From Pseudonocardia alaniniphila (lineage in GTDB: Bacteria; Actinomycetota; Actinomycetes; Mycobacteriales; Pseudonocardiaceae): a stretch of DNA of 64,000 bases. This document shows positions 26,387-57,138 of the stretch, piece by piece. The notes under the pieces are model-generated. The model ran no database searches, was not told the DNA's origin, and was given only the letters and a program-made list of their open reading frames with translations. The translations under genes and the position numbers were made by a program. Numbering within the stretch: the first letter of the stretch is position 1; each line of letters begins with the position of its first letter. Location of the stretch: assembly GCF_022524485.1 (NCBI RefSeq), contig NZ_JAKXMK010000030.1, forward strand, positions 1-64,000, in the 5' to 3' direction.

Positions 26387-26466
26387 GCCACCCACACGGC
26401 CGTCCCGCTGGTTGCACCACACCGTGGTCAGCGGACAGCGGCCCGTAGGGACTCGGCGAGAGTTCC

Positions 26467-42148: not shown

Positions 42149-43480
42149 TCAGCGCACGAACGACGGGCGCTTGGGATCGAAGGTCCACCCGTCCACGAGC
42201 TGCCGCATCGCCACGGCGTCGTCGCCGGCACCGAGTCCGTGCTCCCGGTGCAGATCGTGCGCCCGGGCCAGTGCCGCGCGGTCGAGAGTGACGCCGAGGC
42301 CGGGGCCGGCGGGCACTTCCAGGTGCGAGTCGATGATCTGCGGCGGGTCGGTGAGCAGGTGCTCGCCGTCCTGCCAGATCCAGTGGGTGTCGAGGGCGGT
42401 GATCGCGCCGGGTGCGGCGGCGCCGACGTGGGCCAGCATCGCGAGGGAGATGTCGAAGTGGTTGTTGGAGTGCGAGCCCCACGTGAGCCCCCAGTCGGCG
42501 CAGAGCTGCGCGACGCGCACGGACCCGGCCATCGTCCAGAAGTGCGGGTCGGCGAGGGGGATGTCGACCGCGTCCGCCTTCACGGCGTGGTGGAGCTCCC
42601 GCCAGCTCGTGGCGATCATGTTCGTGGCGGTCGGGAGCCCGGTCGCACGCCGGAACTCGGCCATCGTCTCCCGGCCGGAGAACGCTCCCTCGCGGCCGCA
42701 CGGATCCTCCGCGTACGCGAGCACGTCCGCCAGGCGGCGGCCGAGCCGGATCGCGTCGTCGAGCAGCCATGCGCCGTTGGGGTCGAGGGTGATCCGCGCA
42801 TCGGGGAAGCGCTCCTTCAGCGCCGATACCGCGTCCGCTTCGGCGGCGCCGGTGAACACCCCACCCTTCAGCTTGAAGTCCCGGAAGCCGTAGCGGTCGC
42901 GCGCCGCCTCGGCGAGGCGCACCACGCCGTCCGGGTCGAGCGCGGGATCCCGGCGGATACGCGCCCAGGTGTCGCCGCCCTCGTCGCCCGCGGCGTAGGG
43001 CAGGTCGGTGGCCGTGCGGTCGCCGATGTAGAAGAGGTACCCGAGCACCGGCACCTGGTCGCGGACCCGTCCGTCGCCGAGCAGTTCGGCCACGGGCACC
43101 CCGTAGTGCTGACCGGTCAGGTCGAGCAGCGCCGATTCGAGGGCGGTGACGGCGTGCACGGTGGTGCGCAGGTCGAAGGTCTGCTCGCCGCGTCCGGCTG
43201 CGTCGCGGTGGCCGTACCGCTCGGTCACGCGGCGCAGCAGCGAGCGGTACTCGCCGATCGACTCTCCGATCAGGTCGGTCCCGGCCTGCTCGATGGTGCG
43301 CTGGATGGCGGATCCGCCCGGCGTCTCACCGAGGCCCGTGCGGCCGGTGCTGTCGGTGAGGATCACGATGTTCCGGGTGAAGAACGGGCCGTGGGCGCCG
43401 CTGAGGTTCAGCAACATGCTGTCGTGGCCGGCCACGGGCACGACCTCAACCGCGTCGAGGGTCGGCCTGCCGCTGGTCAT
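42149..43480 (-). CDS. gudD: Glucarate dehydratase (enolase superfamily)
   Basis: A 443-residue enzyme that dehydrates D-glucarate to 5-keto-4-deoxyglucarate. The length and motifs match GudD: the lysine pair in FKLKGG, metal ligands beginning with Asp in TLDPNGAW and Glu in AYAEDPCG, Asn in TNMIATSW, and the catalytic His in [14 protein letters not shown] with the following DTHWIWQ. The ATG at 43480 overlaps the stop of the 5-dehydro-4-deoxyglucarate dehydratase gene by four bases, so the two consecutive pathway steps are translationally coupled (kdgD first). Confidence 0.93.
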
Positions 43481-44400
43481 GCCTGCGGGGCAATGCGCTG
43501 CACAAGCTCGGTGAGCGCGGACCTCTCTTCTGCAGTGAGGTCGGTGAGCGGGGGTCGCACGGGCCCACCGGACCGACCGACGGCGGTGAGCCCGGCCTTG
43601 ATGATCGACACCGCGTAGCCCTTCCGGCGGTCGCGGATGTCGAGGTAGGGCAGCACGAAGTCGTTGAGCCTCCGATAGACCGCGGCGCGGTCGCCTGTGC
43701 GTACGTCGGCGAAGAAGTCGAGCGCGAACCGCGGTACGAAGTTGAAGATCGCCGAGGAGTAGGTGGTGACGCCGAGCTGGAGGTAGGGCAAGGCGAACGT
43801 CTCGGCTGTCGGGAGGCCGCCGATGTAGGTGAACCTGTCGCCGAAGCGCGCATAGACCCGGGTCATCAGCTCGATGTCCCCGACGCCGTCCTTGAACCCG
43901 ACGAGGTTCGGGCAGGCATCGGCCAGCTGGGCGAGTGCATCGACGCCGATACGGGCGTTCGCACGGTTGTAGAAGACGACTCCGAGATCGGTGGCCGCGC
44001 AGACGGCCTTGACGTGGGCGACGATGCCGTCCTGGGGCGCCTCGGTCAGGTAAGGCGGGAAGAGCAGCACGCCGGAGGCTCCTGCGGCCTCGGCTGCTCT
44101 TGCCTGCTCGACGGCGATCACGGTGCCGTGGCCGGCGGGCGCGAGCACCGGCACGGCGCCCCCGACCTCCGAGACGGCCGCGCGTACGACCCGGTCGACC
44201 TCGGTGGGGGAGAGGGAGAAGAACTCGCCCGTGCCCCCGGCCGCGAAGAGGCCGGCCACGTCGTACCCCGCGAGCCAGCCGAGGTGCTTGCGATACGCGG
44301 GCTCGTCGAACTCGAGATCGGTGGTGAAGTGCGTGACGGGGAACGACAGGAGCCCGGCGCCGAGTGCTGCGGCCAGTGCGGAAGGGGCTGGTGCGGGCAC
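43477..44400 (-). CDS. kdgD: 5-dehydro-4-deoxyglucarate dehydratase
   Basis: A 307-residue (beta/alpha)8 lyase of the DHDPS/NAL family that converts 5-keto-4-deoxyglucarate to 2-oxoglutarate semialdehyde with loss of CO2 and water. The N-terminal [10 protein letters not shown], the [14 protein letters not shown] loop, Tyr in GVVFYNRAN and the Schiff-base Lys in VGFKDGVGD are those of KdgD rather than DHDPS. It is the promoter-proximal gene of the kdgD-gudD pair and divergent from the second glucarate-dehydratase-like gene. The next enzyme, 2-oxoglutarate semialdehyde dehydrogenase, is not in the window. Confidence 0.93.
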
Positions 44401-44652
44401 GTGTGCCTACCTCCGGGGAGTCACGACGTCGTGGGGGTGAACGGCCGGTCACGTCACTGTAGGTCGGGTGCCGATGGCCGTCTAAGTGCTTCTCGGCATC
44501 GAATGATGCGCGCGCAGCATCGGCAACGCGACGAGCTCAATGGCATCATCGCGATGATCGTGTTGCTTGTGGTGCTCCTCCCGCTCGTCAAGATCCTCAT
44601 CGGATGTGGAGGACATGCCGCCCGGCGGCGGCCGGGGCGACGAGGAGGGCAG

Positions 44653-45954
44653 ATGAACGGGCGGTTCTTGTCCCAGGCCGAGCGGGTGGGCGCGACCGCA
44701 CGGATCAGCCGGGTCGACGTCACGCCCGTCGCGTTCGCCGACCCGCCGCTGCTCAACGCGGTCGGGGTGCACGAGCCGTTCGCGTTGCGGGCGATCGTGC
44801 GTGTGTACACCGACGACGGACTGGTCGGCCTCGGTGAGACCTACGCTGATGACGCCCACCTCGAACGCCTGAACGCCGTGGCGGCTGCTCTGCCGGGCGT
44901 CGACGCGTTCGAGACCAGCCGCCTGCTGTGGCTCGTGCGCGACGTGCTGGGCCGGTCCGGCTCCGCGGGCGGCGACGGTGTGGCCGCCATGATCAACGGC
45001 GCGAGCACCGTCGACCGGGTGTTCTCGCCGTTCGAGGTCGCCTGCCTCGACCTGGCGGGCAAGATGACCGGACGCCCTGTCGTCGATCTGCTGGGCGGCC
45101 GCGTGCGCGACGTGGTGCCCTACAGCGCCTACCTCTTCTACAAGTGGGCAGAGCATCCGGGCGCCGACGCCGACGAGTGGGGCGAGGCACTCACACCGGA
45201 GCAGCTCGTCGAGCAGGCCCGGCGCATGATCGACAACTGGGGCTTCACCGCGATCAAGCTCAAGGGCGGGGTGCTGCCGCCGGACGAGGAGATCGAGACG
45301 ATTCACGGGCTGGCCGCGGAGTTCCCGGGCGTGCCTCTGCGCCTGGATCCCAACGCCGCGTGGACGGTCGAGACCGGCATCAGGGTCGCGAAGGCGCTCG
45401 ACGGACTCGTCGAGTACCTGGAGGACCCGTCGCCGGGGATCAGGGGGATGGCACGCGTGGCGGCGGAGGCGCCGATGCCGCTCGCCACGAACATGGCGGT
45501 CGTGGCGTTCGATCAGCTACCGCCGGCGATCGCGGCCGATGCGGTGCAGGTCGTGCTCAGCGACCACCACTTCTGGGGCGGGATGCGACGCTCACAGCTG
45601 CTCGCCGGCACCTGCGACACGTTCGGCCTCGGGCTGTCGATGCACTCGAACTCCCACCTCGGCATCTCGCTCGCGGCGATGACGCACCTCGCAGCGGCCA
45701 CCCCGAACCTCACCTACGCCTGCGACACCCACTGGCCGTGGAAGACGGAGGACGTGGTGCGGCCCGGTGCGCTGACGTTCGCCGACGGCGCGGTCGCCGT
45801 GCCGGACGGGCCCGGGCTGGGCGTCGAGCTCGACGAGGACGCGATCGGCACGCTGCACGAGCAGTACCTCGCGTCCGGTCTGCACTCTCGCGACGACACC
45901 GGCTACATGCGCCGGTTCCGGCCGGACTTCGAACGTAGGCTCGGCTCCTGGTAG
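44653..45954 (+). CDS. Glucarate-dehydratase-related enolase-superfamily enzyme
   Basis: A 433-residue paralogue of the gudD product at 42149. It has the Lys pair in AIKLKGG, metal Asp in RLDPNAAW, Glu in EYLEDPSPG, TNMAVVAF in place of TNMIATSW, and the catalytic His in SMHSNSHLGISLAAMTH with DTHWPWK. These changes suggest a glucarate dehydratase with shifted specificity (idarate, galactarate or another hexarate). The start has a strong GAGGAGGGCAG ribosome site. The frame is open upstream and contains a hydrophobic stretch, but the start at 44653 fits the family length. It is divergent from kdgD-gudD. Confidence 0.88.
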   Translation: MNGRFLSQAERVGATARISRVDVTPVAFADPPLLNAVGVHEPFALRAIVRVYTDDGLVGLGETYADDAHLERLNAVAAALPGVDAFETSRLLWLVRDVLGRSGSAGGDGVAAMINGASTVDRVFSPFEVACLDLAGKMTGRPVVDLLGGRVRDVVPYSAYLFYKWAEHPGADADEWGEALTPEQLVEQARRMIDNWGFTAIKLKGGVLPPDEEIETIHGLAAEFPGVPLRLDPNAAWTVETGIRVAKALDGLVEYLEDPSPGIRGMARVAAEAPMPLATNMAVVAFDQLPPAIAADAVQVVLSDHHFWGGMRRSQLLAGTCDTFGLGLSMHSNSHLGISLAAMTHLAAATPNLTYACDTHWPWKTEDVVRPGALTFADGAVAVPDGPGLGVELDEDAIGTLHEQYLASGLHSRDDTGYMRRFRPDFERRLGSW

Positions 45955-45974
45955 CTCGTGCGTCGCGGCGCGTC

Positions 45975-47168
45975 CTACTCGGCGATCGTGACGTCGCCGA
46001 CGGTCCACCCCAGCACCTTGTCGCTGAGCGTGAGGCCGATGCCCGGCCGGTTCGGCACGACCATGCGGCCGTCGGCGATCTCGATGCGCTCCTCGAACAG
46101 CGGCTCCAGCCACTCGAAGTGCTCGACCCACGGTTCGGTGGGGTAGGTGGCCGCCAGATGCACGTGGAGCTCCATCGCGAAATGTGGGGCGAGTGCCAGG
46201 CCCGCCTCGTCCGCGAGCACCAGGAGCTTCATGAACTGCGTGATTCCGCCGATGCGCGGTGCGTCGGGCTGGATCGTGTCGACCGCCCCGGCGGTGATCA
46301 ACTCGACGTGCTCGCGCACGCTGGTGAGCATCTCGCCGGAGGCGACGGGGGTGTCGAGCGCCGCGGCGAGCCGGGCGTGGCCGGTGACGTCGTAGGCGTC
46401 GAGGGGCTCCTCGATCCACACCAGGTCGAACTCCTCGAGCGTGCGCCCGACGCGCAGTGCGGTGGCGCGGTCCCATTGCTGGTTCGCGTCCACCATGAGC
46501 GGCACCCCGACGCCCACGTGCTCCCGTACGGCGGCGACGCGGGCGAGGTCGATCGCCGGATCGGGCTGGCCGACCTTGAGCTTGATGCCGCCGATCCCGC
46601 GGGCGAGCGAGGCACTCGCGTTCTCGAGCACGCCCTCGATCGGCGTGTGGAGGAAGCCTCCCGAGGTGTTGTAGCAGCGGATGCTCTCGCGCTGCGCACC
46701 CAGCAACTTCGCCAGCGAGAGACCGGCCCGCTTGGCCTTCACGTCGTACAGGGCGTTGTCGATCGCGGCGATCGCCTGTGTGGACGCGCCGCTACGGCCG
46801 ACGGAGGCGCCCGCCCAGACGAGCTTGGTCCAGAGGCGGGCGATGTCGTTCGGATCCTCACCGATCAGCACCGGAGCGACCTCGCGGACATGCGCGAACT
46901 GAGCCGGCCCGCCGGCGCGCTTGGAGTAGCTGAAGCCGAGACCTGTGATGCCGTCGGTGGTGGTGACCTCGGCGAACAGCATCGCGACCTCGGTCATGGG
47001 CCGCTGGCGTCCGGTGAGGACCTTCGCATCGCTGATCGGCGTCGGCAGCGGTAGCCGCACGCTGCGCAGGCGCAGGCTGTGGATGCGGTCGGCCGTGCCC
47101 GGTGCCGGCGATCGATCGGCCCGGCTGCGGTGCTGCTCCGCGGAGATGACGTCGTCGTCGATGCTCAT
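45975..47168 (-). CDS. L-talarate/galactarate dehydratase (mandelate-racemase family)
   Basis: A 397-residue enolase-superfamily enzyme. From the phrase HSLRLRSVRLPLPTPISDAK through LGFSYSKRAGGPAQFAHVRE, CYNTSGGFLHTPIEG, IKLKVGQPD, VDANQQWDR, WIEEPLDAYD and APHFAMELHVHLAATYP it follows the Salmonella/Polaromonas talarate-galactarate dehydratase almost continuously. Catalytic residues are the KxK Lys, the His in PHFAMELHVH, and metal ligands Asp, Glu, Glu. The product from galactarate enters the same keto-deoxy-hexarate route as kdgD. About 25 extra residues precede the conserved part. It converges with the gene at 44653 and has a FadR-type regulator gene behind it. Confidence 0.92.
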   Translation of the reverse strand: MSIDDDVISAEQHRSRADRSPAPGTADRIHSLRLRSVRLPLPTPISDAKVLTGRQRPMTEVAMLFAEVTTTDGITGLGFSYSKRAGGPAQFAHVREVAPVLIGEDPNDIARLWTKLVWAGASVGRSGASTQAIAAIDNALYDVKAKRAGLSLAKLLGAQRESIRCYNTSGGFLHTPIEGVLENASASLARGIGGIKLKVGQPDPAIDLARVAAVREHVGVGVPLMVDANQQWDRATALRVGRTLEEFDLVWIEEPLDAYDVTGHARLAAALDTPVASGEMLTSVREHVELITAGAVDTIQPDAPRIGGITQFMKLLVLADEAGLALAPHFAMELHVHLAATYPTEPWVEHFEWLEPLFEERIEIADGRMVVPNRPGIGLTLSDKVLGWTVGDVTIAE

Positions 47169-47283: not shown

Positions 47284-47997
47284 TCACGCCGGTCGGGACG
47301 CGCCCCATCCCTGGTAGAAGCCGTGCAGATGGGCTTCGACGCGCCGCGCTGCGAGGCCGTCGAGGCCGTGGGTGATCGCCACGGTCACCCCCTGGTGCTC
47401 GCGGCTGAGCCGCTTCGCGGTCTCCGGCCAGTTCTCGACGGCCGCGAAGCGGGACGCCATCTGATCGGCCATGGCGTCGCGCAGTCCGAGCATGAGCTGA
47501 GCGCACAAGTGGCTTCCCGATGCGCGGGCGATCACGAGATGGAACGCCGTGTCGAGATCCTGGAACCGATCCGGCGGGATGCGGGGGTGCGCCATCTCGG
47601 TCGCGAGCTCGCGCAGCTCGGCCTTGTCGTCGTCCGCGGCGCTGACGGCGGCGCGCGCGGATGCCGTGCGTTCGAGCCGCGTGCGGACGGCCAGCAGTTC
47701 ATCGGCCGGGATCTGTGCGCATCGGAGCGAGAGCCTCAGCAGCCGTCCGATTCCGTTCTCCGGTCCGGACGTGCTCGCGAGCGCGCCCCCGGCGTCGACC
47801 ACGCCGAACAGTTCGAGGACCGCGAGGGCGTCCCGGGCGTTGCGGCGACTCACACGCAGATCGGCGACGAGCTCGTCCTCGGTGGGAGCCGTTGCGCCCA
47901 CCCGCGGTCCGACCTGCAGGAGCTGCGTCTCGACCTCGGACACGACCTGCGACAGTGGCGCGATCCTCCGCACCTCCGCGTGCTCATTCCGCAGCAT
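47284..47997 (-). CDS. FadR-type GntR transcriptional regulator
   Basis: A 237-residue GntR/FCD regulator. The winged helix is recognisable but somewhat divergent: TEDELVADLRVSRRNARDAL then VLELFGVVDA. The FCD domain contains RFQDLDTAFHLVIARASGSH, the usual metal/ligand region. ATG 47997 has a GAGGGGA ribosome site; an ATG at 48033 is possible but weaker. It is divergent from the mutase operon, with two copies of a FadR-type palindrome between them, and has a close relative at 55235 on the far side of that operon. It probably represses the operon until a CoA or hydroxyacid ligand appears. Control of the neighbouring galactarate gene is also possible. Confidence 0.88.
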   Translation of the reverse strand: MLRNEHAEVRRIAPLSQVVSEVETQLLQVGPRVGATAPTEDELVADLRVSRRNARDALAVLELFGVVDAGGALASTSGPENGIGRLLRLSLRCAQIPADELLAVRTRLERTASARAAVSAADDDKAELRELATEMAHPRIPPDRFQDLDTAFHLVIARASGSHLCAQLMLGLRDAMADQMASRFAAVENWPETAKRLSREHQGVTVAITHGLDGLAARRVEAHLHGFYQGWGASRPA

Positions 47998-48058
47998 CGC
48001 GTCCCCTCCCTCGGCATGGCCGGACGCTGCCATCGGGTGGCCTGAACGCTAGCAACGC

Positions 48059-48073
48059 TGTGGTCTGACCACA
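48059..48073. promoter_or_regulatory. FadR-type GntR operator 1
   Basis: TGTGGTCTGACCACA is a perfect 15-base palindrome matching the FadR-subfamily pattern TNGTNNNACNA. It lies 61 bases upstream of the regulator start (47997) and 81 bases upstream of the mutase operon start, in the shared divergent promoter. Confidence 0.75.
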
Positions 48074-48113: not shown

Positions 48114-48124
48114 TGGTCTAACCA
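48114..48124. promoter_or_regulatory. FadR-type GntR operator 2
   Basis: TGGTCTAACCA, extended to TATGGTCTAACCACATA at 48112-48128, repeats operator 1 with one changed central base. It lies 30 bases before the GTG of the B12-binding subunit gene, where it would overlap or follow the promoter. Confidence 0.7.
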
Positions 48125-48154: not shown

Positions 48155-48601
48155 GTGGACTCCGACGACGGAGAACAGCCCATCCGCGTCATGTTGGCCA
48201 AGATCGGCCTCGACGGGCACGACCGTGGGGTGAAAGTGGTGGCCCGCACGTTGCGCGACGCCGGTATGGAGGTCATCTACACGGGCCTGCACCGGAGTCC
48301 GGAGCAGGTGCTCGAGGCAGCCGTGCAGGAGGACGTGGACGTCCTCGGCGTGAGCCTCCTGTCCGGCGCCCACATGCCGATCTTCACGAAGATCTTCGCG
48401 CTCCTCGCCGAGATGCCCGACCGGCCGACCTTCTCGATCGTCGCCGGTGGCGTGATGCCGGACGAGGACGAGGCGGCGCTGCGCGAGATGGGCGTGGCCG
48501 AGGTCCTGGGGCAGGACACCACTCCCGACACCATCGTGACGACGATCCGGCGCCTCGCCCGCGACCGGGCCGTCGGCAGCGTGACGGGGAGGGACGCGTG
48601 A
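48155..48601 (+). CDS. hcmB: Cobalamin-binding small subunit of acyl-CoA mutase (HcmB-like)
   Basis: A 148-residue B12-binding domain protein. The DxHxxG motif is intact as DGHDRG (20-25), so His22 ligates cobalt. VSLLSGAH and IVAGGVMP complete the cofactor cleft. It is about the size of HcmB (~136) and much shorter than fused methylmalonyl-CoA mutases. It pairs with the large subunit at 50993 for AdoCbl-dependent carbon-skeleton rearrangement. It starts with GTG behind TAAGGAGG, the strongest ribosome site in the area, and is the first gene of the operon. The ligase ATG overlaps its stop by one base. Confidence 0.92.
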   Translation: MDSDDGEQPIRVMLAKIGLDGHDRGVKVVARTLRDAGMEVIYTGLHRSPEQVLEAAVQEDVDVLGVSLLSGAHMPIFTKIFALLAEMPDRPTFSIVAGGVMPDEDEAALREMGVAEVLGQDTTPDTIVTTIRRLARDRAVGSVTGRDA

Positions 48602-50022
48602 TGGAGCAATGGTCCTGGCCACCGCGCTACGACGAGACCTACCGTCCGCCCGCCGATCAGGAGCACTGGTTCCCCCGCCGCGAGACGATGCCGGCGCACG
48701 AGCGCGACGAGGCGATCCTGGCCCGGATCCGCGAGGTGATGCACTACGCCTGGGACAGCTCGCCGTTCTACCGGCGCAAGTGGGACGAGGCGGGGATCCA
48801 CCCGTCGTCGATCGCCTCGCTGGAGGACTTCGAGAAGGTCCCGGTGGTACTCAAGGCCGAGCTTCGCGCCGACCAGGCGGCGCACGAGCCCTTCGGCAGC
48901 TACCTGTGCGTCGACCCGGCCGAGGTCAAGCACATCAACGGCACGTCGGGCACGACGGGACGGCCCACGGCGTTCGGGATCAGCGAGCGCGACTGGCGCA
49001 GCGTGGCCAACGCCCATGCCCGGGTGATGTGGGCGATGGGGATCCGGCCGGAGGACACCGTGATCGTCGGGTCGCCACTGAGCCTGTACTGGGGCTCGTG
49101 GGGTGCCTACATCGGAGCGGAGCGGCTCGGCGCGCGCGTGTTCCCGTTCGGGGCGGGCCAGACGGGCCAGACCGCGCGGACCGTCCAGTGGATGCGCCAG
49201 ATGGGCGCGACCGTCTTCTACGGCACGCCGTCCTACGCCCTGCACCTGGCGGAGACGGCACGGCAGGAGGGCGTCGACCCGGCCGGGCTCGGCCTGCGGA
49301 AGCTGTTCTTCTCCGGTGAGCCCGGAGCGAGCGTGCCGTCGATCCGCTCGCGCATCGCCGAGGCCTTCGCCGCCGACGTCCACGACTCGGGCAGCATGGC
49401 CGAGGTCAGCCCGTGGATGCATCTCGGCTCCGGTTCCACCGAACCGGGCGTGCTGTGCTGGCAGGACCTCGTCTACACCGAGGTGTGCGACCCGGTGTCG
49501 ATGCGGCGGGTGCCCTACGGCACCGAGGGCACGCCCGTCTACACGACCCTTGAACGCACCAGCCAGCCGATGATCCGGCTGCTGTCGGGCGACCTGACGC
49601 GCTGGGAAGCCCCGTCGCCCGACCGCGGCCGGACCTACCCGCACCTGCCCCGCGGCATCTACGGGCGCATCGACGACATGTTCATCATCCGCGGGGAGAA
49701 CATCTATCCCAGCGCGATCGACGACGTGGTCATGGCCGACCCCGGTTACGGCGGGGAGCACCGGATCGTCATCAGCCGCGGGACGGCGATGGACGTGCTC
49801 GCCGTGCAGGTGGAGCACCATCCGGGGCTCGATGCGGACGCCTGCCAGGAGTTGGCCGACCGGCTCTCCGGCCGGCTCCGGCACGTGCTCGGCGTCGGGG
49901 CGAACGTCGTCCCGGTGCAGCACAACACCCTGCCGCGCACCGATTTCAAGGCACGGCGCGTGATCGACGATCGGGACCTGCTCGGGGAGATCCTGCGGAC
50001 AGGTGCCGGCGGGACCGCATGA
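48601..50022 (+). CDS. hcl: Acyl-CoA ligase of the phenylacetate-CoA ligase type; probable 2-hydroxyisobutyrate-CoA ligase
   Basis: A 473-residue adenylate-forming ligase. The ATP loop is NGTSGTTGRPT (113-123), the hinge region contains GRIDDMFIIRGENIYPSAID, and the catalytic Lys450 lies in RTDFKARR. The overall pattern and length are PaaK-like. As I remember it, the characterised 2-hydroxyisobutyrate-CoA ligase is of this type and size. Sitting between the two mutase subunit genes and MeaB, it should make the mutase's CoA substrate. ATG 48601 (TGATG overlap) with GGGAGGG upstream is preferred over GTG 48598. Its stop overlaps the GTPase start by four bases. Confidence 0.85.
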   Translation: MEQWSWPPRYDETYRPPADQEHWFPRRETMPAHERDEAILARIREVMHYAWDSSPFYRRKWDEAGIHPSSIASLEDFEKVPVVLKAELRADQAAHEPFGSYLCVDPAEVKHINGTSGTTGRPTAFGISERDWRSVANAHARVMWAMGIRPEDTVIVGSPLSLYWGSWGAYIGAERLGARVFPFGAGQTGQTARTVQWMRQMGATVFYGTPSYALHLAETARQEGVDPAGLGLRKLFFSGEPGASVPSIRSRIAEAFAADVHDSGSMAEVSPWMHLGSGSTEPGVLCWQDLVYTEVCDPVSMRRVPYGTEGTPVYTTLERTSQPMIRLLSGDLTRWEAPSPDRGRTYPHLPRGIYGRIDDMFIIRGENIYPSAIDDVVMADPGYGGEHRIVISRGTAMDVLAVQVEHHPGLDADACQELADRLSGRLRHVLGVGANVVPVQHNTLPRTDFKARRVIDDRDLLGEILRTGAGGTA

Positions 50023-50960
50023 CGACCAGCGGGCGCAGCCTCGTCGCCCGGATCCTGGACGGTGATCCGGCCGCCGTCGCCCGGGCCCTGACCCTCGTCG
50101 AGCGGCGCTCGGCCGGGGTGAACGAGATGCTGGCGCAGCTCCATGCCGTCGCTCGCGGCGCTCACGTGCTCGGCGTCACGGGTCCGCCGGGCAGCGGGAA
50201 GTCGACGCTCGTCAGCGCTCTGACCGCTGAGTACCGCAGACGTGACCGCACCGTGGGGATCATCGCGATCGACCCGTCGAGCGTGTTCACCGGCGGCGCC
50301 ATCCTCGGCGACCGGATCCGGATGTCGGAGCTGTCCGGCGACCGGGGCGTGTTCATCCGGTCGATCGCCACCCGTGGCGCCCTGGGCGGGCTCTCACGCG
50401 CTGCTCTCGACGGGATCACCGTGCTCGCCGCCGCGGGGAAGGACGTGATCATCCTCGAGACGGTCGGCGTGGGCCAGGCCGAGGTCGACGTGATCAGCGC
50501 GGCCCAGTCGGTGGCCGTGGTCAGCGTGCCCGGGATGGGCGACGACGTGCAGGCCATCAAGGCCGGTCTGCTGGAGATCGCCGACGTGCACGTCGTCAAC
50601 AAGTCCGACCGCGAGGGCGCGCACAAGGTCGTCGCGGAACTGCGCGAGATGCTGCGGCTGTCCCATCGCGAGGCCGGCCAGTGGAACGTGCCGATCGTGC
50701 AGACGGTCGCCGCGACCGGAGCGGGGGTGCCCGATCTGGCCGATCGGTTCGACGAGCACCGGACGTGGATGGAACGCAGCGGAGAAGGACTGGCGCGCGA
50801 GCGGCGCAACGCTGCCACACGCATCCGCTGGATGGCCGAGGAGCTGGTACTCGAACGGCTCCGGCCCGGCCTACCCGACTTCGACAAAGCCGTGGACGCG
50901 GTCACCGAACGTCGGTGTGACCCCGTGAGCGCAGCGCGGCGGCTGGTCGGCAGGCCCTGA
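50019..50960 (+). CDS. meaH: MeaB/ArgK-type GTPase, mutase chaperone
   Basis: A 313-residue SIMIBI-class G protein that guards and reactivates AdoCbl-dependent mutases. Walker A is GPPGSGKST (55-63), the switch regions include IAIDPSSVFTGGAILGDRIRM and ETVGVGQAEVD, and the specificity motif is NKSD. It is about the usual MeaB length. It overlaps the ligase gene by four bases and is followed within 32 bases by the mutase large-subunit gene, an order like the hcl/hcm/meaH cluster described for Aquincola. It should gate cofactor loading on the adjacent mutase. Confidence 0.92.
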   Translation: MTTSGRSLVARILDGDPAAVARALTLVERRSAGVNEMLAQLHAVARGAHVLGVTGPPGSGKSTLVSALTAEYRRRDRTVGIIAIDPSSVFTGGAILGDRIRMSELSGDRGVFIRSIATRGALGGLSRAALDGITVLAAAGKDVIILETVGVGQAEVDVISAAQSVAVVSVPGMGDDVQAIKAGLLEIADVHVVNKSDREGAHKVVAELREMLRLSHREAGQWNVPIVQTVAATGAGVPDLADRFDEHRTWMERSGEGLARERRNAATRIRWMAEELVLERLRPGLPDFDKAVDAVTERRCDPVSAARRLVGRP

Positions 50961-50992
50961 TCTCAGGCGGCGAGACATCAGTGAGGAGCACC

Positions 50993-52705
<1,713 letters not shown>

Positions 52706-52769
52706 CCTTTCCCACCTCGGCCGCGCCGACGGCCGACACAGCACTCCACCGATGATGTCGGAGGTAGTC

Positions 52770-54440
52770 GTGTACCAGCAGGTCATCGCCCCGCTCGGAG
52801 GGAGCCTCGGGTGGTCGGCCCTCGCCGCCGCGATCCCGTTGCTCGTCCTCTTCCTGCTCCTCGGGGTCTTCCGGATACGGGCCTGGTTGGCGTCGCTGAT
52901 CGGGCTACTGGTCGCGTTCGTGATCGCGGTGCTGGTCGACGGCATGCCCGTTCCGGCCGCGGCGGACGCTGCCGCCGAAGGTGCGGCGTACGGGCTGTAC
53001 CCGATCCTGTGGATCGTGATCAACGCGATCTGGATCTACCACCTGACGGTGGAGTCCGGTCACTTCGACGTGCTGCGCCGCGCCTTCGCGCGGATCAGCG
53101 CGGACAAGCGCGTACAGGGCATCATCATCGCGTTCTCCTTCGGCGCGCTGCTCGAAGCGCTGGCCGGATTCGGCGCGCCCGTCGCGATCTGCGCCGTGAT
53201 GCTGGTGGCGATCGGGATGAAGCCGCTCAAGGCCGGTGCGGTGGCGCTGATCGCCGACACCGCGCCGGTCGCGTTCGGGGCCGTCGGGATACCGATCACC
53301 ACGCTCGCGCAGGTCTCTGGCCTGCCTGTCGACGACCTCGCCGCGATGACCGGCCGCCAGGTGCCGATACTCGCGGTGTTCGTCCCGCTCGTCATGCTGG
53401 TGGTGCTCGACGGCAGGCGAGGACTGCGGGAGGCCTGGCCTGCTGGGCTCGTCGCGGGTGTGACGTTCGCCGTTGCGCAGTTCCTGGTGGCGAGCTACGG
53501 ACCCGTGCAGCTCGTCGACATCGTGGCGTCGCTGGTCTCAGCGGCTTCCGTGCTGCTCCTGCTGCGGGTGTGGCAGCCGGCAGGCACCCCGGACGATGGG
53601 CAGGACGGCGGCCGCGTGCCGGCGGGCGCCAGGCTCGTACCGGAGGGACCGGGCGCGGCGTCGCGGCCCGCGGGACCCACGCTCACCGGCGGCGACAGCG
53701 GCGGGCAGGTTCTTCTCGCCTTCGTGCCGTACCTGATCGTCATCGTGCTGTTCGTGCTCTCGGTGATCCCCGTGCTGAAGGCGGTGCTCTCCGCGCCGAC
53801 CGTGACGTTCGCGTGGCCGGGACTGGACATCCGCACGCCCACTGGGGCGCCGGTCTCGTTGACGATGTTCAAGTTCGACTGGCTGATCGCCTCCGGCACC
53901 GTGTTGCTCATAGCCGGGCTCCTCACGGGGGCGGTCCTGCGGATCTCACCGCTGCGTCTCGTCCGGGCGTACGGCCACACGCTGTATCAGCTGCGCGGCG
54001 CCGGGGTGACCGTGATGGCCGTCCTCGGGCTGGCCTACGTCATGAACCTCTCCGGCCAGACGGCGACGCTGGGCCTGTTCCTAGCCGGAGCGGGCAGCCT
54101 CTACGCGCTCTTCGCGCCGCTGCTGGGCTGGTTCGGCACAGCCGTCACCGGCTCGGACACCTCGTCGAACTCGCTCTTCGGTGCCCTGCAGGCCAGCGCC
54201 GGACACAGCACCGGAATCTCGCCGATCCTGCTGGCCGCGGGCAACACCTCCGGTGGTGTGCTCGGCAAGATGATCAGCCCGCAGAGTCTCGCGATCGGCG
54301 CGGCCGCGGTCGGGCTCGCCGGGCGCGAGGGCGAGCTCCTGCGCCGAGTGCTGGTTCCCACGGTGCTCTTCGTGGCGGCGATGTGCCTACTCGTCTATCT
54401 CCAGTCGACGCCCGTCCTGTCGTGGATGGTCGTGCGATGA
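52770..54440 (+). CDS. L-lactate permease family (LctP/LldP) transporter
   Basis: A 556-residue transporter with 12-14 helices. The N-terminus YQQVIAPLGG, the ALAGFGAPVAI core and DTAPVAFGAVGIPITTLAQV follow LldP. The family imports lactate, glycolate and similar 2-hydroxy acids with protons. GTG 52770 is preferred because GGAGG lies five bases before it and the protein then begins like LldP; two ATGs at 52752 and 52755 are in frame. Placed after the mutase gene and overlapping the next gene (ATGA), it probably imports 2-hydroxyisobutyrate, i.e. 2-methyl-lactate. A Gly/Ala/Pro-rich loop at about residues 270-305 is longer than usual. Confidence 0.9.
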   Translation: MYQQVIAPLGGSLGWSALAAAIPLLVLFLLLGVFRIRAWLASLIGLLVAFVIAVLVDGMPVPAAADAAAEGAAYGLYPILWIVINAIWIYHLTVESGHFDVLRRAFARISADKRVQGIIIAFSFGALLEALAGFGAPVAICAVMLVAIGMKPLKAGAVALIADTAPVAFGAVGIPITTLAQVSGLPVDDLAAMTGRQVPILAVFVPLVMLVVLDGRRGLREAWPAGLVAGVTFAVAQFLVASYGPVQLVDIVASLVSAASVLLLLRVWQPAGTPDDGQDGGRVPAGARLVPEGPGAASRPAGPTLTGGDSGGQVLLAFVPYLIVIVLFVLSVIPVLKAVLSAPTVTFAWPGLDIRTPTGAPVSLTMFKFDWLIASGTVLLIAGLLTGAVLRISPLRLVRAYGHTLYQLRGAGVTVMAVLGLAYVMNLSGQTATLGLFLAGAGSLYALFAPLLGWFGTAVTGSDTSSNSLFGALQASAGHSTGISPILLAAGNTSGGVLGKMISPQSLAIGAAAVGLAGREGELLRRVLVPTVLFVAAMCLLVYLQSTPVLSWMVVR

Positions 54441-55036
54441 CGGGAGAGCGGGGCATGTCTGCGCCGGACACGCACTCGGCCGCGGCGACGAGCGAGGCTG
54501 CGGTGGGGGAGGTCGAGGAGGCGAACGCCACGGTCGGCGCGGCGTTGTGCAGCGGCACGGTGCCCGACCGGTTCGTCCTGCTGTTGCGCGACGTGCAGAG
54601 CGACCTGCTGGCTCTCGCGACCGACCTGTCAGCCCTCGGATCGGACGGCTCAGATCGCGCCATCGACGCCGCGGCCGTGCAGCAGGTGCTCGCCGCCGTC
54701 GACGAGCACCGCAGCGAACCCGTGCCGGCCGATTTCGCCGTGCTCGGGGGCAGCACCAGCGCCGTCGGGCTCCTGCGGCTCGCGCGGATGACGGTGCGCC
54801 GGGCCGCCCGTAGCGTCCGCCGGCTCGAGCACGTCGGCGCGGTGCCGGACCTCAGCTGTGGCGGTGCCTACCTCGACGCGCTCGCCGAGCTGTTGCTCGT
54901 CCTGGCCTTCGAGAGCGAGCTGCTCGAGCGGCAGCAGCTCCCGGTGGGGTGGTGCGGCGACGGATCCGGCCTCATGGACTTCACCCCGATCGTGCCGCGG
55001 CGTGAGAAACATGCCGGGTTGTCCAGGCGTGGTTAG
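54437..55036 (+). CDS. Degenerate PduO-type cobalamin adenosyltransferase-like protein
   Basis: A 199-residue protein that aligns with the helical bundle of PduO/MMAB ATP:cob(I)alamin adenosyltransferases. GEVEEANATVG (24-34) corresponds to GTVDELNxxIG, LRDVQSDLLALATDLS to IQxDLFxLGADLS, LGGSTSAVGLLRLARMTVRRA (103-123) to PGGSxxAAxLHxARTVxRRAE, and YLDALAELLLVLA to YLNRLSDLLFVLA. The N-terminal ATP-loop (TKTGDxGxT) is absent and the Glu after RRA is Ala, so catalysis is doubtful. It overlaps the permease gene by four bases. It may bind or deliver B12 for the mutase rather than adenosylate it. A GntR operator overlaps its stop codon. Confidence 0.75.
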   Translation: MTGERGMSAPDTHSAAATSEAAVGEVEEANATVGAALCSGTVPDRFVLLLRDVQSDLLALATDLSALGSDGSDRAIDAAAVQQVLAAVDEHRSEPVPADFAVLGGSTSAVGLLRLARMTVRRAARSVRRLEHVGAVPDLSCGGAYLDALAELLLVLAFESELLERQQLPVGWCGDGSGLMDFTPIVPRREKHAGLSRRG

Positions 55037-55040
55037 ACCA
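55030..55040. promoter_or_regulatory. FadR-type GntR operator 3
   Basis: TGGTTAGACCA (with flanks, GTGGTTAGACCACAT at 55029-55043) is the reverse complement of operator 2. It overlaps the stop codon of the adenosyltransferase-like gene and lies about 195 bases before the second GntR gene, linking both ends of the mutase operon to one regulator family. Confidence 0.7.
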
Positions 55041-55234
55041 CATTGAGGTCCTGATGTACGCTGCCGAAGTCGTCGACGGTGCCAGGAATGCCGGATCTCG
55101 CCACAGCCGTCGGGTCGCGGGCTGCGGAGTCCTGCTCCGTCACAGCTCCGCAACGGGTCCCGTACCCCAGAAGGCGAGCCCACCGTGCTCATCCAGCCCA
55201 GTCGCCCCTCCGATCCTGCGGTGGGGCGAGCGTC

Positions 55235-55996
55235 GTGACCGCCGAGACGGGGTGGGAGCGGGTGCGGCGGCTTCGTAACCACGAGCAGGTGCTCGCGCAG
55301 ATCCAGGACAAGATCCTGGACGGTGAGCTGCGCATCGGGGCGAAGCTCCCCAGCGAGCGCGAGCTCGTCGAGATCCTCGGTGTGAGCCGCACCAGTGTCC
55401 GTGAAGCGTTGCGGGCGCTCGAGGCCATGGGCGTGATCGATGCACAGGCGGGTTCCGGACGCGACTCGGGGTCGGTCGTCTCCGGCCGTTCGTCCGAGGC
55501 TCTCGGCAACCTTCTGCGACTGCACGTCGCGCTGGCCGAGATCAGCCTCGGCGAGCTGATCGAGATCCGCGTGCAGCTGGAAGGGCCTGCTGCCGCGGGC
55601 GCCGCACAGCACAGCACAGCCGACGACATCGCGCGGCTCCGCGAGCTCAACGAGGGGATGCGGGCGCGCAGCCTCCCGTCCGACCAGTTCAACGAGCTGG
55701 ACGCCGAGTTCCACGTGAGCATCGCCAAGACCTCCGGCAACGCTCTCGCCGCTACGTTGATGCAAGCGCTGCGCGCCGCGGTGAAGTCGGAGATGGTCGC
55801 GGCGTTCACCCTGCTCGACGACTGGCGGGCCGTGGCCGACCAACTCGTGGACGAACACGAGGGGATCATCGCGGCGATCGAGGCGCGCGACCGCGTCCGC
55901 GCCGCTCGGCTCGTCGAGGAACACATCAGGCGCTTCTACGAGGAGCACGTCGCGCGGGGCGATCGGGCGGCCGCTCCGGGAACGGGAGCCGGTTGA
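55235..55996 (+). CDS. FadR-type GntR transcriptional regulator (second)
   Basis: A 253-residue GntR/FCD regulator. The winged helix is canonical: LPSERELVEILGVSRTSVRE then ALRALEAMGVIDAQAGSG. The FCD domain contains FNELDAEFHVSIAKTSGNAL, the same element as in the regulator at 47284. GTG 55235 opens the HTH domain; the frame is open to 55079 but that segment is unstructured. It lies downstream of operator 3 and its stop overlaps the TTG of the hydrolase gene, so it is cotranscribed with that gene. It may share sites with, or compete against, the first regulator. Confidence 0.88.
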   Translation: MTAETGWERVRRLRNHEQVLAQIQDKILDGELRIGAKLPSERELVEILGVSRTSVREALRALEAMGVIDAQAGSGRDSGSVVSGRSSEALGNLLRLHVALAEISLGELIEIRVQLEGPAAAGAAQHSTADDIARLRELNEGMRARSLPSDQFNELDAEFHVSIAKTSGNALAATLMQALRAAVKSEMVAAFTLLDDWRAVADQLVDEHEGIIAAIEARDRVRAARLVEEHIRRFYEEHVARGDRAAAPGTGAG

Positions 55997-57138
55997 GCGC
56001 AGCGGCGCCCTCCGACAGCTCCGGCGGATCCGATGGGTTCGTCGGTTTCATCGACGCCGGCGACGACCCCGGGCACGTCCGGGTCCGCCGCCACGGCCGG
56101 GTCGGCCGACTGACCCTCGATCGCCCCGAGGCGATCAACGCGCTGTCCCTGCGCATGATGGTCGCTCTCGACACGGTGTTGCGACGCTGGGAAACCGACC
56201 CGCAGATCGACGTGGTGGTGCTCGACGGCACCGGTCCCCGCGGGTTCTGCGCGGGTGGGGACATTCGGGTCATCTACGAGGACGCCCAGAACCGGCGCGG
56301 TGTGTCCGAACGGCTGTGGCGTACCGAGTACCTGCTCGACGCCCTCATCGCCGACTACCGCAAACCGGTCGTGACCGTCCTCGACGGGATCACGATGGGC
56401 GGCGGGATCGGAATCGGCTGCCACATCCGCCACCGGATCGTCACCGAGCGGTCCGTGCTCGCGCTGCCCGAGGTCGCGCTCGGCCTCGCCCCGGACGTCG
56501 GGGGGCTGCTCCTGCTCGCGCGCGCCCCCGGGCGGCTCGGCGCGCACCTCGCGCTGACAGCAGCCCGGATGGGCGGGGTGGACGCCGTGCGCGCAGGGTT
56601 CGCCGACGCCGTCGTGCCGTCGGAACGGCTGGGGCAACTCGTACCCCTGCTGCAACGGATGGATCCGGCCGATGCGATCGCGACACTGGCCGTCGCACCG
56701 TCGGCGCTGGGGGACGGTGAGCTCGAGGCGCACCGCTCCTGGATCGACATGTGCTACGACGCCGATGAGGTGCCCGCTGTGGTCGAGCGGCTCGCCGCCC
56801 ACCCCGAGCCGGCCGCGCGCGCCGCGGCCGAGGCGATCACGCGGATGTCACCGCTCGCGCTGTGTGTCACCTGGTGCGGGCTCGGCGAGGCCGGCAAGGC
56901 CGACGCGCTCGGACCGACCCTCGTCCAGGATCTCCGGGTGAGCTACCGCTTCCTGGACGGCCCCGACCTCGTCGAGGGCATCCGCGCCGCGGTGATCGAC
57001 AGGAGCCGATCCCCGGTCTGGTCGCCGGAGCGGCTGAGCGATGTGACACCGGCGATGGTCGAGAGGCACTTCGCGCCGCTCGGCGCAGCGGATCTCGATC
57101 TGAGCCCGGTGCTGGGCCGGCGCGCCGGGAGGCCCTGA
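55993..57138 (+). CDS. Enoyl-CoA hydratase/isomerase family; 3-hydroxyisobutyryl-CoA hydrolase-like
   Basis: A 381-residue crotonase-fold protein, the length of 3-hydroxyisobutyryl-CoA hydrolase rather than of short hydratases. The oxyanion-hole parts are FCAGGDIRVIYE (85-96) and GITMGGGIGIG (132-142). Glu160 and Asp168 in LPEVALGLAPDVGG match the hydrolase's catalytic pair. The TTG start overlaps the GntR stop by four bases (TTGA). In valine breakdown this enzyme frees 3-hydroxyisobutyrate; beside a hydroxyacyl-CoA mutase operon it could act on 3-hydroxybutyryl-CoA or on a related hydroxyacyl-CoA. The start codon assignment is moderately sure. Confidence 0.86.
   Translation: MSAAAPSDSSGGSDGFVGFIDAGDDPGHVRVRRHGRVGRLTLDRPEAINALSLRMMVALDTVLRRWETDPQIDVVVLDGTGPRGFCAGGDIRVIYEDAQNRRGVSERLWRTEYLLDALIADYRKPVVTVLDGITMGGGIGIGCHIRHRIVTERSVLALPEVALGLAPDVGGLLLLARAPGRLGAHLALTAARMGGVDAVRAGFADAVVPSERLGQLVPLLQRMDPADAIATLAVAPSALGDGELEAHRSWIDMCYDADEVPAVVERLAAHPEPAARAAAEAITRMSPLALCVTWCGLGEAGKADALGPTLVQDLRVSYRFLDGPDLVEGIRAAVIDRSRSPVWSPERLSDVTPAMVERHFAPLGAADLDLSPVLGRRAGRP

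Follow-up and report, generated by a model that had tools for sequence, protein, structure and literature searches.

A probable 2-hydroxyisobutyrate operon in Pseudonocardia alaniniphila with its own permease and an apparently disabled adenosyltransferase homologue

Does a tight run of six genes in the soil actinobacterium Pseudonocardia alaniniphila make up a pathway for 2-hydroxyisobutyrate, and if so, what is the part of its last gene, a homologue of the enzymes that make adenosylcobalamin (AdoCbl) which itself seems unable to do so? The genes lie at 48155-55036 of the 64,000-nucleotide stretch analysed here ("the window": contig NZ_JAKXMK010000030.1, positions 1 to 64,000). We read them as a catabolic operon for 2-hydroxyisobutyrate (2-methyllactate), and put the probability of this pathway, taken as a whole, at roughly 0.8. 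The six genes, with the evidence for each name in brackets, are as follows.

48155-48601, plus strand: hcmB, B12-binding small subunit of 2-hydroxyisobutyryl-CoA mutase (HCM), GTG start, DGHDRG motif (4r3u_C match, TIGR00640)
48598-50022, plus strand: hcl, 2-hydroxyisobutyryl-CoA synthetase, a PaaK-like ligase (6hdw match)
50019-50960, plus strand: meaB/meaH, mutase-associated G-protein chaperone (TIGR00750, PF03308)
50981-52705, plus strand: hcmA, large subunit of HCM (4r3u_A match, Ile/Asp pair, tree)
52752-54440, plus strand: lctP, lactate/glycolate-type permease (TIGR00795)
54437-55036, plus strand: atrX, N-terminally truncated homologue of PduO-type adenosyltransferases (ATRs) with a Gly-x-Cys tail (PF01923, fold model)

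A first-pass annotation of this DNA had described six same-strand genes joined by overlaps or gaps of under 70 bases, and the list of open reading frames (ORFs) of the window bears this out: hcmB/hcl, hcl/meaB, and lctP/atrX share 4-base overlaps (ATGA in the last case), meaB and hcmA are 20 bases apart, and hcmA and lctP 46 bases apart if the first ATG is used. The lctP start is uncertain, since neighboring ATG and GTG codons compete, and hcmA has a further ATG 12 bases inside its called start. Pfam and NCBIfam searches matched all of the families that had been named (B12-binding, PaaK-like, MeaB, mutase, LctP, and adenosyltransferase-like). Because of the overlaps and short gaps, together with six families that are all as named, the genes are likely to form one operon and one transcript; the enzyme activities, the uptake, and the single transcript are things we infer from sequence. 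The G+C content of the operon stretch (about 0.70) is no different from that of its surroundings.

The mutase carries the argument. Compared with solved structures, HcmA scores 795 bits against 4r3u_A, a 2-hydroxyisobutyryl-CoA mutase, and 446 bits against the best methylmalonyl-CoA mutase (MCM), the human enzyme; HcmB scores 175 bits against 4r3u_C, 127 against 2yxb, and 77 against MCM. HcmA falls in the Pfam family MM_CoA_mutase (702 bits) and HcmB in the B12-binding family, with TIGR00640 above cut-off; the small B12-binding subunit is separate, and the hcl and meaB genes are linked. We aligned large subunits in 113 rows, two of them references, after dropping loci whose aligned stretch was below 480 residues (L001, L005, L022, L028, L030, and L031 in our numbering) and leaving out duplicates (L002, L006, L039, and L007-L015, replaced by L116-L124). 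At two diagnostic positions, which we take to be Ile90 and Asp117 of Aquincola HcmA and which presumably set substrate and stereochemistry, the window protein aligns as Ile/Asp, as does 4r3u. All rows with at least 58.6% identity to it are Ile/Asp as well (one is Leu/Asp), and the remaining rows are Phe/Ala or Tyr/Ala, with Val/Asp in L016 (identical to L125) as the sole exception. A tree of 111 rows (duplicates L125 and L126 removed), built by a quick search and with some long branches in the outgroup, joins all 57 rows that have Ile/Asp or Leu/Asp, including 4r3u, in a single clade with SH-aLRT support of 99 and no foreign row inside; the window HcmA groups with nine other Pseudonocardiaceae rows (support 92), then with three Mycobacterium rows (100). 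By sequence, the large subunit belongs to the HCM clade, and the HCM identity proposed by the first-pass annotation has survived the phylogeny: the protein sits with the crystallised HcmA, not with the methylmalonyl type.

The ligase and the chaperone agree with this. Hcl scores 659 bits against 6hdw, a 2-hydroxyisobutyryl-CoA synthetase, and 226 against the next structure, a phenylacetate-CoA ligase, and has the AMP-binding and AMP-binding_C_2 domains of a PaaK-like protein; MeaB scores 318 bits with TIGR00750 (cut-off 240.75). Conversion of 2-hydroxyisobutyryl-CoA to 3-hydroxybutyryl-CoA by the window HcmAB is what we infer from residues and clade. Could the mutase nevertheless be of the methylmalonyl-, isobutyryl-, ethylmalonyl-, or pivalyl-type, and the operon serve another acid? 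The NCBIfam models, which call HcmA merely a methylmalonyl-CoA mutase domain, would allow it; the place of HcmA inside the 57-row clade, its Ile/Asp pair, and a ligase closest to 2-hydroxyisobutyryl-CoA synthetase make it very improbable, and the narrower candidate, hcmA as a methylmalonyl-CoA mutase, is ruled out by bit scores, residue pair, and tree. A different Pseudonocardiaceae mutase, the Val/Asp protein L016/L125 (genome G246), is about 50% identical and has meaB- and hcmB-like genes alongside; it may, we presume, be of the (R)-specific RCM type.

The gene-order comparison that the first-pass annotation had called for gives the same picture. Among 56 HCM-type loci, 37 have hcmB-hcl-meaB-hcmA in this order on one strand, nine are cut off upstream, and ten differ or are without a recognisable member; since the order recurs so often, the arrangement is not a matter of chance. 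Methylibium petroleiphilum PM1 and Xanthobacter Py2 keep the window's order of the first four genes, which makes the core one more example of an established type. An HCM copy occurs in ten of 297 family genomes, the window's own included; the other nine copies are 82-86% identical to the window and the next best matches 50-52%, and no further genome of the window's own genus matched among the 297. Plasmids yielded no match above 64% (PM1, Py2, and an Agrobacterium plasmid), and a genus search around G226 found three HCM loci among 19 genomes, all already in the set, in which L039 (Prauserella rugosa) and L122 are the same contig. As judged from sequence, then, the core four-gene pathway was already known and the Pseudonocardiaceae operon is a further member; what appears new here is the permease, the disabled adenosyltransferase, and, in relatives, a riboswitch on the regulator gene.

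The permease is assigned clearly to the LctP family (TIGR00795, 447 bits, cut-off 341), and because 2-hydroxyisobutyrate is 2-methyllactate, a lactate/glycolate-type carrier is a sensible importer. An lctP gene lies within 3 kb of hcmA in eight of the 56 HCM loci, all eight from Pseudonocardiaceae; in L075, from Acidobacteria, a protein distantly related to LctP (29% identity) is encoded about 3.4 kb downstream of hcmA. No title pairing 2-hydroxyisobutyrate with a permease was found in a literature search judged by titles. LctP may instead carry lactate or another 2-hydroxy acid, in an operon that mainly handles 2-hydroxyisobutyrate made in the cell by isobutene, methyl tert-butyl ether (MTBE), or acetone-type chemistry: the family is named after lactate and glycolate, and Mycolicibacterium sp. 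ELW1 forms 2-hydroxyisobutyrate internally from isobutylene (PMC13188929). This is a real but minority option in our view, given that lctP sits inside the operon in eight Pseudonocardiaceae loci and that the acid itself is a methylated lactate.

AtrX, the product of the last gene, is recognisably related to ATRs. It scores 50.4 bits with Cob_adeno_trans (PF01923; Pfam cut-off 24) and 46 bits with TIGR00636, below the cut-off of 108; it matches 2g2d by sequence (E 2.4e-8), and its structure model (pLDDT 86.6) finds PduO enzymes as best fold matches (2g2d, E 6.8e-05), so that the model gives it the PduO adenosyltransferase helical-bundle fold. The ATP loop (YTRTGDxGTT type) is gone from the N-terminus in the window and in L119, L121, L122, L123, and L124, and the window protein has RRAAR in place of RRAER and LDALAE in place of LNRLSD. 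A database search with the six AtrX rows returned 59 proteins (P0061-P0063 look like ordinary ATRs), and we aligned 28 of the 59 together with the window against five ordinary ATRs. In these 29 AtrX-family rows, i) the ATP loop is absent from 26, and present in all five canonical ATRs; ii) the LWxPG-type end, found in all five canonical ATRs, occurs in none; and iii) a [GA]-x-Cys near the C-terminus occurs in 28 (P0018 is the exception), and in no canonical ATR. P0054, P0055, and P0057 combine an intact ATP loop with the new tail, and because they hold both, the tail probably arose first and the loop was lost later. According to PMC8633584, hairpin 68-80, Lys78, Asn214, Ser217, and Glu193 of human ATR contact ATP, and the E193K variant has a nearly normal kcat, 120-fold weaker AdoCbl binding, and harm mainly to its chaperone function. 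AtrX is also without the glutamate equivalent to Glu193, and because E193K keeps its kcat, the case against catalysis rests on the missing loop, not on the missing glutamate. The host genome has one ordinary ATR elsewhere. Adenosyltransferase activity of AtrX is therefore unlikely from its sequence, and "adenosyltransferase-like", the term used in the first-pass annotation, holds for the fold and probably not for the activity, since the ATP loop and the other ATP-site motifs are gone.

AtrX keeps close company with HCM and appears to be maintained. With a profile built from the six proteins themselves, AtrX was found at E<=1e-21 in six of the 297 family genomes, all six of them HCM carriers; the diverged AtrX-like proteins of G270 and G074 were missed at this threshold, as equally diverged ones elsewhere would also be. 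A class-wide search of 394 genomes gave, besides the window, only AtrX matches of at most 73 bits, which we take for ordinary ATRs. The Streptomyces relatives P0056 and P0058 have no genome location, and the 343 genomes of G335's genus gave no match at E<=1e-19, an uninformative search since it had no known positive. In all six loci with atrX behind lctP, there is an overlap of 1 or 4 bases between the lctP stop and the atrX start. The ratio of nonsynonymous to synonymous substitution (dN/dS) for atrX is 0.195 between L123 and L124, 0.392 between L119 and L121, and 0.535 both between L123 and L122 and between the window and L119, compared with 0.045 and 0.12 for hcmA, and 0.136 and 0.121 for lctP, in the first two pairs. 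By this measure AtrX is under purifying selection weaker than that on hcmA and lctP. An artefact frame is ruled out, as the other two frames of the L123/L124 atrX pair (1.7 and 3.7) show no protein-type constraint. In two further loci, L117 (3898-5038, minus strand) and L120 (3768-4995, minus strand), a diverged AtrX-like protein with a G-x-C tail lies upstream, directly behind a GntR-type gene and divergent from hcmB; the L117 protein alone gives no Pfam match, and the L120 regulator was named by eye.

The first-pass annotation was right that a cofactor-handling gene is packaged behind hcmA, and this is not unique to the window (PM1, Py2, L050, and L053 have one too), so that it is the disabled form of the ATR that differs here. 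Intact-loop ATRs stand directly after hcmA in L050 (Marinobacter) and L053 (Halomonas), and near the large-subunit gene in L060, L076, and L092 (the last not HCM-type); PM1 has one intact-loop and one altered-loop gene (L168 10009-10525), and Py2 one altered-loop ATR-family gene (L169 11110-11584), which suggests that adenosyltransferase activity may have been lost more than once in HCM clusters.

What, then, does AtrX do? Were it an ordinary active adenosyltransferase supplying AdoCbl on site, the Pfam score, the PduO fold, the intact-loop neighbors of hcmA in L050 and L053, and the nearly normal kcat of human E193K would all make sense; the loss of the loop and of the NRLSD-type motif, the change of the RRAER glutamate to alanine, the score below the TIGR00636 cut-off, the list of ATP contacts in human ATR, and the canonical ATR elsewhere in the genome make this quite improbable. 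Only a little less improbable is a functionless, decaying remnant. AtrX does diverge fast (36-43% identity to the window among the Pseudonocardiaceae loci, compared with 64-86% for the five other operon genes) and has been progressively truncated, down to a 77-residue ORF in L118 that by eye resembles the last two helices plus tail, and to nothing found in L116; the purifying selection on its frame, the tail conserved in many of the 59 database matches (28 aligned), and the overlap of its start with the lctP stop in all six loci speak against decay. We tentatively prefer a non-catalytic helper that would hold cobalamin and pass it from the housekeeping ATR to HcmAB-MeaB, the terminal cysteine perhaps acting as a cobalt ligand or contact; this reading is contested and falls somewhat short of even odds, and the cobalt-thiolate contact is a guess, one possibility for the tail.

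The gene set reaches past 48155-55036, and the first-pass claim of a complete operon is right for the six genes and too narrow for the set as a whole, which also includes a GntR gene on each side, shared operators, and a gene for a hydrolase:

47284-48033, minus strand: gntR1, GntR/FCD-type regulator divergent from hcmB (PF07729, 56 bits)
48061-48071, no strand assigned: putative GntR-type operator TGGTCTGACCA in the hcmB promoter region (consensus match)
48114-48124, no strand assigned: putative GntR-type operator TGGTCTAACCA, 30 bases before hcmB (consensus match)
55030-55040, no strand assigned: putative GntR-type operator TGGTTAGACCA before gntR2, overlapping the atrX stop (consensus match)
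55059-55179, plus strand: stretch where relatives carry a putative AdoCbl riboswitch, here at most a decayed remnant (model R1)
55185-55238, plus strand: 17-codon upstream ORF whose TGA overlaps the gntR2 start GTG (ORF scan; no clear ribosome-binding site)
55235-55996, plus strand: gntR2, GntR/FCD regulator, LldR/GlcC/PdhR-like (family models)
55993-57138, plus strand: ech2, 3-hydroxyisobutyryl-CoA-hydrolase-type protein (PF16113, 354 bits; NF004127, 362 bits, above cut-off)

The regulators resemble LldR, GlcC, and PdhR, scoring below the cut-offs of those models, and the GntR domain of gntR1 is below the Pfam cut-off. The pattern TGGTYNRACCA has three matches in the 64 kb (0.07 expected), all at the hcmB and gntR2 promoters, and a looser pattern, TGGTNNNACCA, adds one window match, at 26409. 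Seven of nine Pseudonocardiaceae relatives (L116-L124) have a putative operator upstream of hcmB (in L118 at the start of a divergent ech2), and five (L119, L121, L122, L123, and L124) carry one ahead of the gntR2 leader; neither L116 nor L117 shows an exact match. A gntR2 homologue also follows hcmA in the Mycobacterium loci L036-L038. GntR2 probably represses the operon. An ech2 gene lies within 8 kb of hcmA in eight of the ten Pseudonocardiaceae HCM loci, and its product perhaps releases trapped CoA; ech2-type genes of 36-42% identity are also found near hcmA in L068 and L073. On its other side the operon is adjoined by sugar-acid genes (43477-47168), among them an L-talarate/galactarate dehydratase gene at 45975-47168 on the minus strand (NF047820, 675 bits) and, both named by eye, a second enolase-superfamily ORF and a DapA-like ORF.

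In seven of the relatives the gap between atrX or lctP and gntR2 holds a cobalamin-riboswitch-like leader with the B12 box GCCACTG. Each of the following is a predicted AdoCbl riboswitch with an overlapping mini-ORF, placed before the GntR gene beside the HCM operon:

L117, 11401-11543
L118, 7453-7611, minus strand
L119, 11855-12008
L121, 11827-11979
L122, 6539-6696, minus strand
L123, 11889-12036
L124, 11888-12035

With Rfam RF01482, L117 alone of the seven passes the gathering score of 50, at 51.6 bits, and L122, the one leader also scored at a level below gathering, has 35.7 bits (E 4.7e-5). A covariance model built from the seven leaders recovers all of them at 118-162 bits, by construction; of the genome's four own cobalamin riboswitches it recovers two, L131 and L132 (first found with RF00174), at 28.5 and 44.7 bits, and matches the other two in part at 16.4 bits. 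No score exceeds 16.4 bits in L116, in L120, or in the other loci of L036-L074 (38 without L039). Across the seven leaders, standard pairs fill 94% of the pair cells, and both sides have changed in 10 of 36 pairs, a number reached by one of 500 shuffles. Further pair types are not remarkable in number (51 of 500). The covariation test used the alignment from which the structure itself had been derived. Single-sequence folding adds little: the L122 leader beats its shuffles only slightly (z -1.52; 17 of 200 did as well), and the window leader does not beat them (z 0.28). In all seven relatives the final hairpin of the leader extends its pairing into the ribosome-binding site of a short ORF, and the TGA of this ORF overlaps the start of gntR2; L120 has such a short ORF, with a one-base overlap, without the riboswitch. 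A riboswitch in the window itself was tried and rejected: its scores are at noise level, model R1, with filters off, giving 8.9 bits at 55059-55179 and 6.8 bits for the runner-up among the 501 bases scanned, and with default filters the best window scores (at most 13.9 bits) lie elsewhere. AdoCbl usually shuts leaders of this riboswitch class, and if it does so here, AdoCbl would lower the repressor and thereby open the operon, as the leader sequences suggest for the relatives.

Put together, the proposed pathway would run as follows: LctP, going by its family, would import 2-hydroxyisobutyrate; HCL, from close homology to a solved enzyme, would activate the acid to 2-hydroxyisobutyryl-CoA; HcmAB with adenosylcobalamin would shift the carbonyl-CoA group, the product being 3-hydroxybutyryl-CoA, presumably in its (S) form like that of Aquincola; MeaB would gate cofactor loading and the removal of damaged cofactor, as is known of its family; AtrX, most likely no longer making cofactor, would hold cobalamin from the housekeeping adenosyltransferase and pass it to the HcmAB-MeaB complex; a FadR-type GntR repressor at TGGTYNRACCA would keep both the operon and the repressor's own gene closed as long as neither the acid nor its CoA ester is there; and in the relatives the AdoCbl riboswitch on the repressor gene would probably add the condition that cofactor is available, none being recognisable in the window. 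The most far-reaching version, in which AtrX of the Pseudonocardiaceae HCM operons is a dedicated non-catalytic cobalamin carrier (its lost ATP site compensated by a Gly-x-Cys tail touching or ligating cobalt) that hands cofactor to HcmAB-MeaB, and in which an AdoCbl riboswitch silences the GntR repressor through the coupled mini-ORF, so that the operon opens only with both substrate and finished cofactor, is in our judgment doubtful.

A number of points weigh against these proposals: import by LctP is read from its family, as are the effectors of the GntR regulators; TGGTYNRACCA has 22 sites genome-wide (9.4 Mb) compared with 12 for a reversed control, so that the operator consensus by itself is not specific at that scale; only L117 of the seven relatives passes the Rfam gathering score, and Rfam gave no cobalamin match in the window at gathering level, nor at E-value level on 401 bases; L116 has no AtrX in its 19.7 kb, and the short ORF that is all L118 has at the atrX position ends in PAVMCG, without the glycine; by the E193K result, loss on the ATP side should weaken cofactor holding unless the tail compensates, and the same result weakens the carrier reading, as it speaks against AtrX holding AdoCbl well; and the host assembly has an estimated contamination of 7.29%, so that the host of the contig is not certain.

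If the proposals hold, their interest is threefold. Most work on how B12 enzymes obtain and mend their cofactor concerns methylmalonyl-CoA mutase, for which a single protein produces AdoCbl and also hands it over; a natural ATR homologue that lacks the ATP loop would pull these two tasks apart, so that delivery could be tested alone; in relatives, riboswitch control of the repressor gene would form a simple gate that opens a B12-dependent pathway only when substrate and cofactor are both present; and the operon adds a Pseudonocardiaceae branch to the enzymes that degrade 2-hydroxyisobutyrate, an intermediate of fuel-oxygenate and isobutylene breakdown.

How does the operon compare with known systems? 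Its closest counterpart is the HcmAB-HCL-MeaH cluster of Aquincola tertiaricarbonis and Methylibium PM1, which has the same four core proteins in an operon-like arrangement; according to PMC7176365, many strains have hcl, the mutase genes, and meaH arranged in this way, and a GntR gene is usually close by. PM1 differs from the window: its record names no LctP within the 8 kb flanks, and it has two genes of the ATR family, of which one keeps its ATP loop intact, as well as a 3-hydroxybutyryl-CoA dehydrogenase gene. The ibcM,N,O,P genes on plasmid pELW1-1 of Mycolicibacterium sp. ELW1 encode a small subunit, ligase, MeaB-type protein, and large subunit, with a FadR/GntR regulator, and their lettering, from which alone we take the order, suggests the order of the window; the cluster differs in an MHS-family MFS transporter, cobalamin biosynthesis genes, and a dehydrogenase, and its description, in the text available, names neither LctP nor a truncated ATR (PMC13188929). 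With the PduO ATRs (human MMAB; M. tuberculosis 2g2d/6wgs), AtrX shares the fold and part of the arginine helix, and differs in lacking the ATP loop, the NRLSD motif, and the LWxPG end and in having the G-x-C tail. No title on a riboswitch, GntR, or adenosyltransferase with HCM turned up in the literature searched, most subscription journals being outside its scope. The leader of the relatives resembles the ppe2 relay of M. tuberculosis. There too, as summarised in a review (PMC12713380), a cobalamin riboswitch stands before a short ORF that overlaps the start of the gene under its control; that gene encodes PPE2 and not a catabolic regulator. The logic suggested for the relatives is that of EutX/Rli55 in Enterococcus and Listeria, where AdoCbl turns on the B12-dependent ethanolamine operon by switching off a negative element (PMC5821096); EutX/Rli55 has an AdoCbl riboswitch, unlike the window itself, which has no recognisable one, and its negative element is a small RNA sponge, whereas in the HCM relatives it would be a GntR repressor gene.

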